DNA of 64,000 bases, taken from assembly GCF_027921845.1 (NCBI RefSeq), contig NZ_BSEN01000015.1:382636-446635 (forward strand), in the 5' to 3' direction. The first letter of the stretch is position 1, and every line of letters begins with the position of its first letter. The DNA comes from Leifsonia poae (GTDB lineage: Bacteria > Actinomycetota > Actinomycetes > Actinomycetales > Microbacteriaceae). A model generated the notes under the pieces. The model saw only the letters and a list, made by a program, of their open reading frames with translations. It was not told the origin of the DNA and did not search any database. The position numbers and the translations under genes were made by a program. Positions 51,976-60,146 of the stretch are shown one piece after another.

Positions 51976-52524
51976 GTGAGTACCTTCCCCCGTGCCCGGA
52001 AGTCGAAGCTCGGTTACGACACCGCGCAGGTCGACGAGTTCCTGCAGACCGCCCGCCTCGCCTATGACGGCGACGCCTCCGACAAGGATGCGCTGACCTC
52101 GGCGGACATCCGGCATACCGCGTTCGGCATGGAGAAGGGCGGCTACTCGACCACGCATGTCGACGCCGCCCTCGAGCGGCTGGAGGACGCCTTCGCGGCA
52201 CGCGAGCGCGAGGCCGCCCGCGCGGCTGCGGGCGAGGCCGCCTGGTTCGAGGAGGCGCGCACGACGGCCCAGGTCGTGCTGAACCGACTCGACCGGCCGA
52301 TCGGGCAGCGTTTCGACCGCGCGAGCGTCTTCACCTATGGCTACAACCGCACGGATGTCGACCGATTCTCGTCGCGCTTGGTGAAATATTTCCAGGACGG
52401 GAAGCCGATGAGCGTCGAAGAGGTGCGCACCGTGACGTTCCGCCCGCAGCGCGGCGGATACAAGGAGATCCAGGTCGATCTGCTGCTCGACAGCGTGACG
52501 GATGTGATGCTGGCTGTTCGCTGA
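51976..52524 (+). CDS. DivIVA-domain repeat protein
   Basis: 182 residues from GTG 51976. Four copies of the DivIVA hallmark GY-x(4,5)-VD-x-x-L/F occur: KLGYDTAQVDEFL, GGYSTTHVDAALERL, YGYNRTDVDRFSSRL and GGYKEIQVDLLLDSV, arranged as two pairs around a helical linker. This matches the actinobacterial DivIVA repeat family. It lacks the long coiled coil of true DivIVA. A CAGAAT at 51964-51969 lies 6 nt upstream of the start. A role in polar or septal localisation is an inference. Confidence 0.85.
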   Translation: MSTFPRARKSKLGYDTAQVDEFLQTARLAYDGDASDKDALTSADIRHTAFGMEKGGYSTTHVDAALERLEDAFAAREREAARAAAGEAAWFEEARTTAQVVLNRLDRPIGQRFDRASVFTYGYNRTDVDRFSSRLVKYFQDGKPMSVEEVRTVTFRPQRGGYKEIQVDLLLDSVTDVMLAVR

Positions 52525-53388: not shown

Positions 53389-55131
53389 ATGGAGTACGCA
53401 CTCATCGGAGTGATCGGCATCGTCGTGCTGGTCGGGGTGTCCGTGTTCTCCAAACAGCTCGGGATCGCGACACCGGTCGTGCTCGTCGTGGTCGGCGTTG
53501 CCATCTCGTTCCTGCCGATCCTTCCGACCTCGTTCGAGGTCCCTCCGTGGGTCATCCTGACGATCGTTCTGCCGCCGTTGCTCTATTCGGCGGCGATCCA
53601 AGTGCCGCTGATGGACTTCAGGCGCAACATCGGGCCGATCTCGGTCCTCTCAGTCGTCCTGGTCGTTGTCACCGCGTTCGTCATCGGCTTCATCCTGTAC
53701 GCGATCCTGCCGGACCTCGACCTCGCGGCCGGAATCGCCCTGGGGGCCGTGGTGAGCCCGACCGACGCGGTTGCGGCCACGGCCATCGCCAAGCGGCTCG
53801 GTCTGCCGACACGACTCGTGACCGTTCTCGAAGGCGAGAGCCTGGTCAATGACGCCTCCGCGCTCGTGCTGCTCAAGTCGGCCGTCGCCGCCACCGCCGC
53901 AACGGTGCACGTCGCCGCGGTCGCCGGTCAGTTCGCGCTGTCCGTGGTCATCGCCATCGCGATCGGCCTCGTGGTGGGCATCGTGACGGTCTTCCTCCGC
54001 TCGCGCCTCAACGACCCCGTGCTCGAGACAGCGATGTCGTTCGCCGTGCCGTTCATCGCCTACATCCCGGCGGAGAGTCTGGAGGCATCCGGGGTGCTCG
54101 CCGTCGTCGTCGCCGGCCTCTACACCGGCCACAACTCCGCACGGCGGTTCAGCGCCCAGGCGCGGATCGCCGAACGCCTGAACTGGCGCACCGTGCAGTT
54201 CCTCCTCGAGAACGGCGTCTTCCTCGTGATGGGCGTGCAGCTGAAGTCGATCATCAGCGGAGTGGAGACGCATCCGGCCGGTCTCGACGTCTGGGGCTGC
54301 CTGGCGCTCGGCCTGCTGATCTGCGTGCTGCTGCTGGTCATCCGGGGGCTCTTCATCGTGCCGATCGTGCTCGGACTGCGCGCCAGCCAGCGCCGGGCGG
54401 AGCAGATCGGCGACCGCGTCTCCGACGGCCTCGACAAGATGAACGACCGCCCGGAGCCGAGCACGGAGCGCGACAGGCGACGCTGGTCCCGTCTGCGGCG
54501 CTATCTCGAACGGCGCTCCGCCGACATCACCGAGATGCAGGATGCGTCGATCGGCTGGCGCGGAGGTGCGGTGCTGACCTGGGCGGGGATGCGCGGCGTC
54601 GTCACCCTCGCCGCCGCTCAGACGCTGCCGCGCGAGACCCCGTACTCGTTCCAGCTCATCCTGATCGCGTTCGTCGTCGCGCTCGTCACGCTCCTCGTCC
54701 AGGGCGGGACCCTTCCGTTGGTCATCCGGCTCTTGAAGGTGACGGGCTCGGATGCCGCGGCCGATCGCCGCGAGCTGGCCGGCCTGCTCGAAGAGATGAG
54801 CGAGGCTGGCCTCGGCGCGCTCGAGAACCCCGACGTCGGCCTCCCCGAGGGCGAGGTGCTCGACGAGGACGTCGTGGAGCGGGTGCGGCAAGACACGCTG
54901 CTGCGTGTCGAGGCCGAATGGGAGCGGGTGGAACGCGAGGAAGGCGAGAAGGAGAAGGCCGGCCCGCACGAGCAGTACCGGGCGCTGCGGTCGCTGGTGC
55001 TCGATGCCGAGCGCGACGCGCTGCTGGAGGCGCGCAGCCGCGGCAACTACCCGTCGCGCATCCTGACCAAGGCGCAGACGATGCTCGACTTCGACGAATC
55101 GCGGATGGCGCAGCGCGAGAACGATGCGTAG
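53389..55131 (+). CDS. Na+/H+ antiporter (CPA1/NhaP family)
   Basis: 580 residues. About twelve membrane helices with the ion-site motifs AVVSPTDAVAATAIAKRLG and EGESLVNDASALVL, and WAGMRGVVTLAAAQTLP near residue 405. A 150-residue Glu-rich cytoplasmic tail follows (EWERVEREEGEKEKAG), likely regulatory. TAGCGT at 53377-53382 lies 6 nt upstream, so the mRNA is probably leaderless. It would exchange Na+ for H+ at the plasma membrane. Confidence 0.9.
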   Translation: MEYALIGVIGIVVLVGVSVFSKQLGIATPVVLVVVGVAISFLPILPTSFEVPPWVILTIVLPPLLYSAAIQVPLMDFRRNIGPISVLSVVLVVVTAFVIGFILYAILPDLDLAAGIALGAVVSPTDAVAATAIAKRLGLPTRLVTVLEGESLVNDASALVLLKSAVAATAATVHVAAVAGQFALSVVIAIAIGLVVGIVTVFLRSRLNDPVLETAMSFAVPFIAYIPAESLEASGVLAVVVAGLYTGHNSARRFSAQARIAERLNWRTVQFLLENGVFLVMGVQLKSIISGVETHPAGLDVWGCLALGLLICVLLLVIRGLFIVPIVLGLRASQRRAEQIGDRVSDGLDKMNDRPEPSTERDRRRWSRLRRYLERRSADITEMQDASIGWRGGAVLTWAGMRGVVTLAAAQTLPRETPYSFQLILIAFVVALVTLLVQGGTLPLVIRLLKVTGSDAAADRRELAGLLEEMSEAGLGALENPDVGLPEGEVLDEDVVERVRQDTLLRVEAEWERVEREEGEKEKAGPHEQYRALRSLVLDAERDALLEARSRGNYPSRILTKAQTMLDFDESRMAQRENDA

Positions 55132-55513: not shown

Positions 55514-56251
55514 GTGACCACTGAGCCCATCGAGATCCGGGGGAGCGTCGAGCTGCCCGCACGGCGCGAAGACATCGAGCTGCACACCCGCGACGGTCTG
55601 ACGCTCGTCGGCGAACTGGCGTCGCCGCTCGACCGCGCGCCGGTCGCGACCCTGGTGACGCTGCACCCGCTGCCGACCGGCGGCGGCTTCATGGACTCGC
55701 ACATCCTGCGCAAGGCGGCGGCGCGTCTGCCCGCCCTCGCCGACATCGCCGTGCTCCGCTTCAACACGCGGGGGACGGCGTCGCCACGGGGGACGAGTGA
55801 AGGCCGGTTCTCCCACGGCATCGAGGAGCGCTACGACGTCGAGGCCGCCATGCAGTTCGTCGCGGAGCGCGGCCTGCCGCATCCGTGGCTCGTCGGGTGG
55901 TCGTTCGGCACCGAGCTCGCCCTGATGTACGGGCGCGGCTTCCCGGTCGACGGTGTCATCCTGCTGTCGCCCCCGCTGCATCGTGCGAAGCCCGAGCACC
56001 TGGCCGCCTGGGCGGGCGACCCCCGGCCGATCGTGGCGCTCATCCCCGAGCACGACGACTACCTGAAGCCGGATGCGGCAGCCGAGGCATTCGCGCCGCT
56101 CCCGCAGATCGAGCTCGTCGATGTCGAGGGCGGCAAGCACCTCTGGGTGGGGGAGAACCAGACCAGGCGCGTGCTGAGCGAGATCGTCGAACGCGTCAAT
56201 CCGTCGGCGCTGCCCCTTCCGGGCGAATGGCGTGACGGGACGGCGGTCTAG
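55514..56251 (+). CDS. Alpha/beta hydrolase
   Basis: 245 residues from GTG 55514. The nucleophile elbow is GWSFGTELAL (Ser near 130); TLHPLPTGGGFMDSH forms the oxyanion region and RFNTRGTASPRGTSEG a conserved loop. The acid and base are likely PEHDDYLKP and GKHLWVGE. It resembles the dienelactone-hydrolase-like/YsgN group; substrate unknown. Its TAG stop overlaps the stop of the convergent AI-2E gene within one CTAG. Confidence 0.85.
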   Translation: MTTEPIEIRGSVELPARREDIELHTRDGLTLVGELASPLDRAPVATLVTLHPLPTGGGFMDSHILRKAAARLPALADIAVLRFNTRGTASPRGTSEGRFSHGIEERYDVEAAMQFVAERGLPHPWLVGWSFGTELALMYGRGFPVDGVILLSPPLHRAKPEHLAAWAGDPRPIVALIPEHDDYLKPDAAAEAFAPLPQIELVDVEGGKHLWVGENQTRRVLSEIVERVNPSALPLPGEWRDGTAV

Positions 56252-57285
56252 AGCTCGTTCTGGCGGGGGATGACGACCTGCTTGATGATGAGCAGGATGC
56301 CCGCCGCGAACGGGATGGCGATCAGGGCGCCGAGGATGCCGAGGAGCGTGCCGCCGGCGAGGGCGGCGACCACGACCAGGGCACCCGGCACGGAGACCGC
56401 GCGGTTCATGATGCGCGGGCTCAGCACGTACGCCTCGACCTGCATGTAGATGATGTAGTAGATGCCGGCGGTGATGGCCGTCGCCGGCCCGGCGAGCAGG
56501 CAGACCGCGGTGATGATGACGGAGCCCGTGATGGTGCCCACCAGCGGGATCAGTGAGAAGAAGAAGGCAATCGACGCGAGCAGGATCGGGAACTTCGCGC
56601 CGATGATGGTGAGGAAGATCGCGCTCAGGATGCCGTTGATGAGAGCCAAGGAGACCTGGCCCATGACGTACTTGCCGACGGAGTCGGTGATCTGGTCGCC
56701 GAGGTCGGAGAACCGGGCACGCTTCGACGCGGGGACCAGCTGGTACGAAGCACGCTTGATGCTCGGCAGCGAAGCGGTGAAGTAGATCGTCAGGATGATC
56801 ACGATCAGGGCGCCGAACACGCCGCTGACGATGCCGACGCCGGTGGCCAGCACGGTCGAGGTGATGTTCGGCAGGTTCTTCTGCAGCCACTGCGTGACCG
56901 CGTCGAAGTTCTGCTGATTGACGATGCCGGGGAACTGATGCTGCAGATCGGTGTACCACTGCTGCGCCTTGCCCTCATTGACCCAGGTGACGATTCCGTT
57001 GATCAACTGGGTGAGCTGGTCGACGGCGACCGGCACGATCGCCCAGATCAGGCCGGCGAGCGCGCCGAGGATGACGACCAGCGTGATGACCAGGGCCGAC
57101 CAGCGCGGGAACTTGTGGCGCTCGAGGAACGAGATCAGCGGCTCGATGCCGAGCGCGATGAAGAGCGCTGCGCCGATGTAGGTGATGATCGTCGCCAGGT
57201 TCACGACGGAGGTGAGGATCAGAATCCCGACGCCGACGCCCAACGTTCCGATGAGGCCGACCCTGAACGGGTTCTGGATCTTCAT
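56248..57285 (-). CDS. AI-2E family transporter
   Basis: 345-residue membrane protein with about eight helices. The family pattern is seen in FIALGIEPLISFLERHKFPRWSA, the long polar loop (QFPGIVNQQNFDAVTQWLQ), PLVGTITGSVI and PALVV-type PGALVVVAALAGGTLLG. The AI-2E family includes the AI-2 exporter TqsA and Na+/H+ antiporters, so the substrate is open. It starts 21 bases after the stop of the coiled-coil gene on the same strand, so the two are probably co-transcribed. Confidence 0.88.
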   Translation of the reverse strand: MKIQNPFRVGLIGTLGVGVGILILTSVVNLATIITYIGAALFIALGIEPLISFLERHKFPRWSALVITLVVILGALAGLIWAIVPVAVDQLTQLINGIVTWVNEGKAQQWYTDLQHQFPGIVNQQNFDAVTQWLQKNLPNITSTVLATGVGIVSGVFGALIVIILTIYFTASLPSIKRASYQLVPASKRARFSDLGDQITDSVGKYVMGQVSLALINGILSAIFLTIIGAKFPILLASIAFFFSLIPLVGTITGSVIITAVCLLAGPATAITAGIYYIIYMQVEAYVLSPRIMNRAVSVPGALVVVAALAGGTLLGILGALIAIPFAAGILLIIKQVVIPRQNEL

Positions 57286-57306: not shown

Positions 57307-59943
57307 TCAGTTGCTATCGGCGGAGACCTTCTCCGCCTGCTGCAGCACTCCTCGAAGGTTCTCGAAGTATCCCGCAACGGCTTCGCGCTCAATCCTAATC
57401 TGCGCCAGGCGTTCTTCCGCGTCCGCCACGAGGCGTTCGGTGCGCTCCTCGGCCTCTGCGACGAGCCCGGCGGCGCGCTCCTCGGCGTCGGCGACGATCT
57501 TCGCCGCCGTGGCCTCGGCGTCTTTGCGGGCCGACTTGACCGTGTTGCGGGCCTCGGTCTCGAAGGTGTCCGCCTCGGTGCGCGCCTGCGTGGTGCGCTT
57601 GACCGCCTCGGCCAGCTGCTGGTTGGCCTCGTCGAGGTACTTCTGGGTCTGGGCCACCGCCTCCTGGTGGCGACTCAGGTAATCCTTCTCCGCCTCGTCG
57701 CGCCGTGCCTTGAGTTCGACGTCGAGGTCGATGCGGGCCTGCTCGATCTCGCGGGTCTTCGCCTCGACGGCCTCGAGGGTCTGCGTGCGCAGCGTCGAGA
57801 GTTCCGCGTCGAGCGCTGCTCGTGCCTGGGCCGCCTCCTGCTCGAAGGCGCTGCGGAGCTCCGCGAGCTCGGCCTCGAGCGCCGTCGTGGCTTCGGCCAC
57901 CTCTGCGGCGAGCTTCGCCCGTGCCTCGGTGGTTTCGCGCTCGAGGGCGATGCGGGCCCGCTCCGTGTCGTCGGCGAGGGCGACACGCGTCTCCTCCGCC
58001 TCTTTCTCGAGAGCGACGCGCTGCTGCTCAGCGTCGTTCGCGAGCGTGTCGGCGGTCGACTGCCGCTGGTCGGCGAGGTCGACGGCCGTGCGCCGCACGT
58101 CTTCGGCGAGTGTCGCCTGGGTGCGCTCGATCTCTTCGGCCAGCGACGACTTGGTCTGCTCGACCTCGGCGGCGAGGGCGGACTTGGTCTGCTCGACCTC
58201 GGCCTCCAGTGCCGAGCGGGTGCTCGTCACGTCGTTCTCGAGGGTCGACGTCGTCTGCTCGACCTCGGCGGCGAGGGCGGACTTGGTCTGCTCGACCTCG
58301 GTCGCGAGGGCGGACTTGGTCTGCTCGACCTCGGTCGCGAGGGCGGACTTGGTCTGCTCGACCTCGGTCGCGAGAGCGGACCTCGTCTGCTCGACCTCGG
58401 CGGCGAGCTGCGCCTTCGTGCTCTCCACCTCGGCCGCGAGGACGCTCCGTTCGCGGGCGACCTCGTCGGCGAGGCTGCTGCGGGTGCGGTCGACCTCCGC
58501 GGCGAGATCGGCACGCAGCTGCGCTGCCTCCGCGCTCAGGTCGCGGCTCTGTCGTTCGGCAGCAGCGGCGAGCTCCGCCCTGGTCTGCTCGACCTCGGCG
58601 GCCAGGCTGCTCGCGGTCTGCTCGCGGTCGGCGGCGAGGGACGCTGCGGTCGCGGTGCGCTCGGCCTCGAGCTCCGCGCGCGTGCGGGTCGCCTCGTCGC
58701 TGAGGGCGGTGCGGGTCTGGATCGCCTCGTCGGCCAGCGCCGTGCGGGTCTGGACCGCCTCGTCGGCGAGGGCGCTCGTGGTGGTGGCGACCTCGTCTGC
58801 GAGGGCGCTCTTGGTGCGGGTCACCTCGTCGGCGAGGGCGCTCTTGGTGGTGGCGACCTCGTCTGCGAGTTCGCTCTTGGTGCGCGTGACCTCGTCTGCG
58901 AGAGCGGACTGGGTCTGCTCCACATCGGCGGCGAGGCTGTTCCTGGTCTGCTCGACTTCGAAGGCGAGCGCCTTCTTCGTCTGCTCGACCTCGGTCTCGA
59001 GCGCCTGCCGGGCGGTCCTGGTCTCATTTTCGAGGTCGGCACGGGTCTGCGCCGCCTCGGACGCGAGTGCGACGCGCTGGCGCTCGACCTCGTCGGCGAG
59101 GTCGGCGCGGGCCTGCGCCGCTTCGGCCGCGAGCTCGTTGCGAGTGCGCACGCTCTCGGCCTCGAGGGAATCGTTCGTCTCCGCGACCTTCTTGGCCAGC
59201 TCGAGTCGCGTCTGCTCGGACTCGCGCTCGAACGCGGCGCGATCGTCGGCGAAGGCGTTGGCGAGCTCGGCCCGTCTTGTCTCGATCTCGCGGTCCAGCT
59301 GCGCGGCCTCGGCGCGGGCGGCTTCGGCCTCGCGCGTTGCCACGGCCTTGAGCTCCGCCGCCTCCCGGTCCGCCTCGGCGCGCACAGCGGCCGACTCGCG
59401 CTTGCTCGTCGCACGCACCTCCGCGGCCTCGGTGGCCACAGCACCGCGGATCGCAGCCGCTTCGCGCAGCGCATCCGTGACGAGGGTCTCTCTGTCGGTG
59501 TTCGCCTTCGCCAGTACCTCGGCCGCCTCGATCTGCGCGTCCTCGAGGGCCGTCGTCGCGCGGGCGCGGGCGTCGGCGAGCACCCGTTCGGCCTGCTGCG
59601 CGGCCGTCGACTTGATCTTGTCGACCTCCGCCGCGACGCCGTTGCGGAGCTTCTCGGCATCGATGTCGGCCTGGGCGATCAGGCGGGTCGACTGCTCCTC
59701 GGCCACCCGCAGGGTGTTCTCGAGCTTCGTTCCGAGACCGGAGAACGTGGGGCTCCCGACCTCTTCGATCTCGGCGTTGAGCTCCTCGACGCGCACCTGG
59801 AGCCGCTTGATCTCCTTGGCGGAATCGGCAGCCTGGGTGTTCGACTTGATCAGCTCGCGCCGCAGGTCTTGGACGGCCTTGTCGACCTCGTCCTTGTCGT
59901 ATCCGCGGAAGACCTGTGTGAAGTTCGAATCGTCGGTGGCCAC
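57307..59943 (-). CDS. Giant coiled-coil protein with DivIVA-like N-terminus and 11-residue repeats
   Basis: 878 residues from GTG 59943 behind an AGGAGA site. The first 60 residues (FTQVFRGYDKDEVDKAVQDL) carry a DivIVA-type GY-x-x-x-EVD membrane-curvature motif. Residues about 250-640 are hendecad repeats such as LAAEVEQTKSA and LADEVTRTKSA, giving an almost Pro-free, Gly-poor right-handed coil. The C-terminal 150 residues are a conventional coiled coil. The layout recalls Scy/FilP-type cytoskeletal coils of Streptomyces. It probably forms polar or filamentous scaffolds (inference). Confidence 0.85.
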   Translation of the reverse strand: MATDDSNFTQVFRGYDKDEVDKAVQDLRRELIKSNTQAADSAKEIKRLQVRVEELNAEIEEVGSPTFSGLGTKLENTLRVAEEQSTRLIAQADIDAEKLRNGVAAEVDKIKSTAAQQAERVLADARARATTALEDAQIEAAEVLAKANTDRETLVTDALREAAAIRGAVATEAAEVRATSKRESAAVRAEADREAAELKAVATREAEAARAEAAQLDREIETRRAELANAFADDRAAFERESEQTRLELAKKVAETNDSLEAESVRTRNELAAEAAQARADLADEVERQRVALASEAAQTRADLENETRTARQALETEVEQTKKALAFEVEQTRNSLAADVEQTQSALADEVTRTKSELADEVATTKSALADEVTRTKSALADEVATTTSALADEAVQTRTALADEAIQTRTALSDEATRTRAELEAERTATAASLAADREQTASSLAAEVEQTRAELAAAAERQSRDLSAEAAQLRADLAAEVDRTRSSLADEVARERSVLAAEVESTKAQLAAEVEQTRSALATEVEQTKSALATEVEQTKSALATEVEQTKSALAAEVEQTTSTLENDVTSTRSALEAEVEQTKSALAAEVEQTKSSLAEEIERTQATLAEDVRRTAVDLADQRQSTADTLANDAEQQRVALEKEAEETRVALADDTERARIALERETTEARAKLAAEVAEATTALEAELAELRSAFEQEAAQARAALDAELSTLRTQTLEAVEAKTREIEQARIDLDVELKARRDEAEKDYLSRHQEAVAQTQKYLDEANQQLAEAVKRTTQARTEADTFETEARNTVKSARKDAEATAAKIVADAEERAAGLVAEAEERTERLVADAEERLAQIRIEREAVAGYFENLRGVLQQAEKVSADSN
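58301..58399 (-). repeat. Near-perfect 33-bp tandem repeats in the coiled-coil gene
   Basis: Units at 58301-58333 and 58334-58366 are identical and 58367-58399 differs at a few bases; each encodes one 11-residue hendecad. More diverged units extend from roughly 58.1 to 59.1 kb. They keep frame, so copy number could vary without breaking the gene. Confidence 0.9.
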
Positions 59944-60146
59944 TGTTGTCTCTCCTGAAGTCCGAGGCGTGCACGCCACGTGGCTGCCGCACCGCCCCAA
60001 TCCTACATTTCGAGCCCGACAGCTGCATCGGGGCCCTGTCGGGACCGCGACTGTCCAGGCAATCGTTAGGAGCCTCCCAGGGTGGTCGACTATCGTGTAC
60101 TGACTGTGCCCGCCGGGCGTCCCGGGGCAACACAGAAGGAGCTTGT

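Follow-up and report, generated by a model that had tools for sequence, protein, structure and literature searches.

What kind of protein is encoded by the long reading frame at 57307-59943 of the window (the whole stretch of 64,000 nucleotides of Leifsonia poae DNA that was analysed), and what governs the length of its rod? The original prediction, made from the sequence alone, saw a DivIVA-type head followed by a hendecad coiled coil and proposed a scaffold of the FilP/Scy type. The gene lies on contig 15 of a 4.07 Mb genome, and its host is an actinobacterium that is probably rod-shaped.

57307..59943, minus strand: filP-type gene, 878 aa (ORF call; GTG start at 59943-59941, stop codon at 57309-57307)
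59951..59956, minus strand: ribosome binding site AGGAGA, 7 bases upstream of the GTG (sequence reading)

The predicted length of 878 residues was borne out: the minus-strand frame has 878 codons and a stop, with the ribosome binding site in place, and GC content by codon position across 57307-59943 is gene-like. An alternative frame from a TTG at 60000 is longer than the GTG frame; it is unnecessary, since conservation in the family starts at the GTG.

Judged by its sequence, the protein is most likely a FilP orthologue, and neither DivIVA nor Scy. The fuller reading that we prefer, at a probability of about 0.72, is that it is the FilP orthologue of Leifsonia-type Microbacteriaceae, a parallel dimeric rod in a DivIVA-recruited subpolar network, with its length kept in register.

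Head, tail and relationship to FilP

In the passages of PMC9858780 available here, the FilP/Scy group is placed in the DivIVA-like superfamily, with micrococcales members of <200 to >1000 residues that contain hendecads. The DivIVA-like domain is described there as an N-terminal helix, RGYDxxEVD and then a heptad coiled coil, whilst Scy starts right before the motif and adjoins FilP, near methylmalonyl-CoA epimerase. The available part of PMC4255298 likewise reports FilP in simple actinobacteria, so that a FilP/Scy type outside filamentous forms is not new, a point on which the original prediction was overstated.

59881..59907, minus strand: RGYDKDEVD motif, residues 13-21, DivIVA-like domain (TIGR03544 23.3 bits, cut-off 22)
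59761..59895, minus strand: predicted head helix, residues 17-61, heptad-like coiled coil (periodicity and AlphaFold)
59644..59757, minus strand: the family's most conserved block, residues 63-100 (GSPTFSGLGTKLENTLRVAEEQSTRLIAQADIDAEKLR), with a helix break at 62-69 (alignment and AlphaFold)
57310..57780, minus strand: conserved C-terminal part, residues 722-878, with ERLAQIRIEREAVAGYFENLRGVL near the end (family alignment)

The GYDKDEVD head that had been predicted is present, in the form FRGYDKDEVD. Twelve residues precede the RGYD motif, and Phe8 is invariant in 16/16 aligned heads. The head passes the TIGR03544 cut-off, and scores 21.8 bits with Pfam DivIVA (cut-off 28) and 21.4 with the Wag31 model (cut-off 260). 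Heptad-like stretches are found in the head (~12-77) and in the tail (~738-814). Structure prediction was one of the checks proposed at the outset: in the AlphaFold model, short and long head helices (8-11 and 17-61) are followed by the break at 62-69 and then by one helix, 70-876, which at 0.15 nm per residue would be ~120 nm long. The model was made from 13 input sequences as a single chain, which has no bearing on oligomer state, and has a mean pLDDT of 69.7; residues 61-70, like residues 1-14, are below 50. Since residues 1-14 have such low values and the pTM is 0.30, neither the first helix nor the overall shape is reliable. The head thus follows the published order of N-terminal helix, motif and heptad coiled coil, with low confidence for helix 8-11.

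An alignment of 16 heads (A1) was searched against the source genome and against family and phylum samples. It found one FilP-type gene in the source genome, where DivIVA appeared only at E 0.08, and matched 30 of 296 phylum genomes. Eight sampled genomes with a match, of 7-10 Mb, belong to group f5/g90; each has a single matching protein, in a frame of 322-333 aa, with E-values of 8.5e-11 to 7.1e-10. At one locus of this group (L101) a FilP-type protein of 312 aa adjoins a 1244-aa protein starting VRGYESQE, and a thiolase. On sequence these two proteins fit FilP and Scy as described in the available part of PMC9858780 and, from the Scy-like gene adjoining the FilP-type gene, we infer that the group is Streptomyces.

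The reverse search used a profile of eight FilP rows from seven genomes (A3; L078 and L102 are the same gene) and returned the window's protein as its sole match in the source genome, weakly, at E 5.4e-5 and 23.8 bits. The two proteins are therefore reciprocal best matches, with one match in each direction and the reverse one weak. Between the heads there is 33% identity over 105 aa (E 3e-11), and comparison of the head profile of short relatives with that of FilP gave a probability of 96.3. The tail profile, with the window's protein included, matched that of FilP in hhalign with a probability of 92.6 (E 4.5e-7), which points to a homologous C-terminal end; it is soft evidence, since the ends of coiled coils can align through composition. 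The FilP/Scy-like architecture of the original prediction, a DivIVA-type head on a hendecad rod, therefore stood, and is refined here to an orthologue of FilP rather than of Scy.

Synteny with the scy-filP locus of Streptomyces was also considered and is rejected: the nearest thiolase, a marker taken from L101, is ~240 kb away on the same contig, and no methylmalonyl-CoA epimerase match above cut-off is present in the source genome.

The hendecad rod

57781..59298, minus strand: 46 hendecads without interruption, residues 216-721, the part varying in length among species (periodicity, register)
58276..58374, minus strand: three identical 33-base units in tandem, residues 524-556 (DNA comparison of units)

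The 11-residue period is far above chance, and the heptad-only pattern that would have spoken against the original prediction is not what was found. The spectral power of VILMFYW is 52.8 at period 3.66 (11/3), compared with at most 10.4 in 200 shuffles, for which a coarser period grid was used than for the real sequence. Residue identity at lag 11 is 0.36, against 0.07-0.12 at lags 1-10, and over residues 105-700 the power is 27.5 at 11/3 and only 0.7 at the heptad period of 3.5. A rod with hendecads, as in FilP, is thus present; the prediction was right about its nature but undercounted it, giving about 35 hendecads where 46 are contiguous.

Position a is Leu in 44 and Phe in 2 of these 46 units. 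In a register of 47 units from residue 183, e is mostly V/A, Thr occupies h in 31, Glu occupies d in 35 and Lys/Arg occupies i in 33. The resulting apolar L/V/T stripe has E along one side and K/R along the other, which is the pattern of a coiled coil. The rod has 4 aromatic residues in 506 and a net charge of -9.9 per 100 residues, and the net charge is negative in 160/160 family rods examined (1 of 161 was too short).

At the DNA level the units are mostly diverged, with a mean identity of 0.55 (0.40 for protein), and yet frame and register are kept. Tandem arrays of 33, 66 and 99 bases are also present in the gene. The three identical 33-base units must be a recent duplication or mis-assembled repeats.

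Rod length in eleven-residue steps

Rod length was compared as a span whose anchors are the G of the head's GLG and the V of the tail's VAGY, located with profiles of both ends only; profiles were chosen since pattern matching missed 19/120 family loci and L060. A head match was present in 213 loci, and the 36 of them that lacked a tail anchor were dropped: eight are 3.3-kb loci truncated within the gene (L063, L065-L071), and 28 come from the phylum search or its regions and were not recognised by the tail profile, including L086, of the same family (group g85). The 177 kept are 120 fetched places, 55/56 named loci, L072 and L073. The 120 places come mostly from the best-E-value end among the matches listed, so that diverged members are under-sampled; 202/249 family genomes matched, and 47/249 had no head match at E 0.001. 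In group g85 there were only weak head matches (E 1e-6 to 3e-5, two genomes) and none at 1e-6 in the 7 genomes listed; FilP is lost or strongly changed in this group.

The 177 loci represent 161 distinct proteins, whose spans run from 296 to 1011 and take 60 values. Modulo 11, 80 proteins fall in class 6, 80 in class 10 and one in class 5, so that 59/60 span values lie in two classes, whereas with other moduli (5-10 and 12-16) all classes are used. The exception, L224, is 5 residues shorter than its genus mate L198, the loss lying in the tail and not in the hendecad array. The window's protein, which is outside the set of 161, has a span of 787 and is in class 6. The two classes are 4 residues apart in one direction and 7 in the other, equivalent to a stutter and a heptad respectively, and shifts of either kind are tolerated in coiled coils. 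The spacing from RGY to GLG in the head is 56 in 155/156 loci and 63, one heptad longer, in L227.

Eleven named loci (L007-L017) are of the long type; they are Leifsonia or Diaminobutyricibacter, with 53-73% identity in the best segment. The strain Root4, also named Leifsonia, is of the short type. A tree built from head and tail columns requires at least 79 changes of span and at least two switches between classes 6 and 10; it was a quick search on at most 164 columns and its branch order is uncertain. Among 47 sister pairs, 22 differ in span, and 20 of these do so by an exact multiple of 11 (chance 2.9e-19 at a one-in-eleven rate); the other two involve L224 and L190.

The same behaviour is seen outside the family. 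Thirteen proteins of group f77, another family of the same taxonomic order, were read. Twelve are from genus g288 (L235-L246) and have 11 distinct spans of 706-1072, eight in class 2 and four in class 5; the thirteenth, L247 of another genus, is in class 3. The quantisation in g288 is an independent replication. Searches of the open-licence literature turned up nothing on rod length changing in steps, or on the FilP of Microbacteriaceae; the protein itself is of a described group, and the step-wise length appears to be its one unreported property.

The available text of PMC6599971 describes FilP of S. coelicolor as self-assembling into striated filaments, bundles and meshes with a 60-nm repeat, as interacting with and being recruited by DivIVA, and as having a mechanical role, with crooked hyphae on deletion. 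By analogy, the window's protein most likely serves as a dimeric rod in a subpolar network of filaments that DivIVA recruits, and its dimeric state, filament formation, polar position and mechanical role are each proposed on this basis. Two chains would pair in parallel through the DivIVA-like head, as known for relatives, and run on as a near-straight two-stranded hendecad coiled coil. With head and tail as sticky ends, the dimers could build a filament or mesh under the membrane beside the growing pole; the separate DivIVA would recruit this network, which would stiffen the new cell cylinder. In evolution the rod would gain or lose whole hendecads, because any other change would throw the paired chains out of register between the two conserved ends.

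Alternatively, the quantised length may be a functionless by-product, with 33-base units duplicating or dropping out whole by slippage. The three identical tandem units, the 33/66/99-base arrays and the very uneven differences between sisters (1 to 35 hendecads) speak for this. Most units, however, are so diverged (the mean DNA identity of 0.55 given above) that slippage by itself would sometimes break within a unit, and some groups have a fixed length: 446 in 46/161 proteins, and 487 in 6/7 loci read of group f86, the seventh being cut by a contig end. We rate this explanation at a little under even odds; it leaves the identity of the protein as FilP untouched.

A further step beyond the FilP reading, and one that we consider speculative and rather unlikely, is that the rod serves as an evolvable ruler with which Microbacteriaceae, and independently g288, tune the lattice spacing, a longer FilP sometimes replacing Scy. 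Each hendecad would then add ~1.6 nm to the subpolar lattice spacing, giving a more than threefold range in eleven-residue steps. That the lattice period should follow rod length is the prediction that separates such a ruler from neutral slippage. The family offers a natural length series for this, one gene with the same two ends, spans of 296-1011 and almost perfect quantisation at 11, which makes it testable, for bacterial intermediate-filament-like proteins, whether rod length sets the lattice period of the filament and the mechanics of the pole; the series could reveal whether the spacing of filaments depends on rod length. It is also a clear case of coiled-coil register being kept through dozens of length changes.

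Other readings, the gene neighbourhood and known systems

Could the protein instead work like Scy, as a polar scaffold that assembles at the tip DivIVA, the wall machinery and proteins for chromosome partition, its rod having lengthened by its own route so that one protein does both the FilP and the Scy jobs? The rod is long, and relatives reach 1011, still below Scy spans (six proteins with three distinct values, 1199, 1210 and 1283, measured from other anchors than in the FilP family). Further, there are at least 12 crossings of a 690-residue length threshold on the tree, and no second FilP/Scy-type head was found in the source genome, though a Scy head could escape the profile used. Against this, the paired scy-filP arrangement near an epimerase was not seen around the gene; the residues before the motif, with their invariant Phe8, are kept where Scy starts at the motif; the head profile gives no match to Scy (probability 9.8); and short relatives with spans from 296 have the same ends. 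The rod periods also differ. Scy heads were found in 7/8 loci read (none in L229), and 7/7 of their rods peak at 3.642-3.643, with a Scy rod power of 98.9 at 51/14 and 2.0 at 11/3; the window's protein has 0.2 at 51/14 against the 27.5 at 11/3, and since almost none of its power sits at 51/14 the long rod of the Leifsonia type is closer to a pure array of hendecads. Walshaw reportedly described in 2010 a 51-residue unit as the Scy repeat, and 51 is four hendecads and one heptad. A Scy-like role is thus distinctly improbable.

That the 11-residue repeats form a lipid-binding amphipathic helix, coating membrane or lipid droplets in the manner of apolipoproteins or perilipin, is suggested by Pfam Apolipoprotein (E-value 1.2e-24, and 13/13 matches in alignment A5 of the protein and 12 relatives, best 1.2e-29) and by phmmer hits among solved structures to ApoA-IV (two entries) and weakly ApoE, but it is very hard to credit and not supported, as the score of 87.6 bits is just below the curated cut-off of 90, the apolar stripe (a, e and Thr at h) is narrow with E and K/R directly beside it where Apolipoprotein A1/A4/E has a broad apolar face, the rods are poor in aromatics and net negative, and the head is of DivIVA type. 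The phmmer search also returned a tail fibre. Such rods could easily be misnamed from the Pfam matches, and automatic annotation may do so.

As to DivIVA, the proposed search for a separate divIVA gene succeeded. The true DivIVA of the genome, 277 aa long, is encoded in the order murC - ftsZ - sepF - yggT - divIVA - lspA - rluA-type, with a 361-aa frame between murC and ftsZ; it passes Pfam DivIVA (52.7 bits, cut-off 28) and misses Wag31 (111.8, cut-off 260). The window's gene, with its score below the same Pfam cut-off, is outside this ftsZ cluster.

56248..57285, minus strand: AI-2E-type transporter gene, 21 bases downstream of the filP-type gene (family search, locus comparison)
51976..52524, plus strand: PolyDIV-type gene, DivIVA domain repeat protein (TIGR03543 222.6 bits, cut-off 154.2)

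The transporter gene is probably co-transcribed with the filP-type gene. In the 56 named loci, some of which have short flanks, it is found in 55 (absent from L052), on the same strand in 55/55; cdsA is found in 55, an SCO2278-like lipoprotein in 55 and a thioredoxin/TPR gene in 54. The PolyDIV-type gene, placed after frr and cdsA, encodes three DivI1A stretches in 182 aa, and is the third DivIVA-like gene of the genome, 5 kb from the filP-type gene. It is present in 55/56 named loci (absent from L029), at a distance of 2.0-6.0 kb and in every case on the opposite strand, which suggests that FilP and PolyDIV, conserved neighbours of one superfamily, may work together. A Na+/H+ antiporter at 53389-55131 lies between PolyDIV and the FilP operon; it is found in 5/56 relatives within the fetched flanks.

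Compared with known systems, the protein shares with DivIVA/Wag31 the head motif and the helix behind it, but the genome's own DivIVA is another gene, that of the ftsZ-sepF-yggT cluster. PolyDIV (TIGR03543) is of the same superfamily and is a neighbour, but has several DivIVA-like domains and no long rod. Scy of Streptomyces likewise has a DivIVA-like motif followed by a very long rod that contains hendecads; it differs in starting at RGYE, in its period of 3.642 (51/14) and in adjoining filP. The closest likeness is to FilP of Streptomyces, which has the residues before the motif, RGYDxxEVD, the heptad-like helix, a P-S/T-Y/F-x-GLG block followed by L-R-x-AEE, a hendecad-rich rod, a similar C-terminal end and a single match per genome. 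The Streptomyces protein differs in its length (312 aa compared with 878 aa), gene neighbourhood and rod charge (-1.9 per 100 residues, compared with the more acidic rod here). Its rod period is 3.644, compared with 3.663 here, although the FilP rod is short and its peak broad (over its 211 residues the power is 13.8 at 51/14 and 8.9 at 11/3). Between the two lies a short relative, L033, with a rod period of 3.658 over 295 residues and powers of 10.4 at 11/3 and 8.2 at 51/14, its shortness limiting resolution. Since the period here lies above that of Streptomyces-type FilP and Scy (3.642-3.644), the geometry and assembly of the Leifsonia-type rod may differ from theirs.
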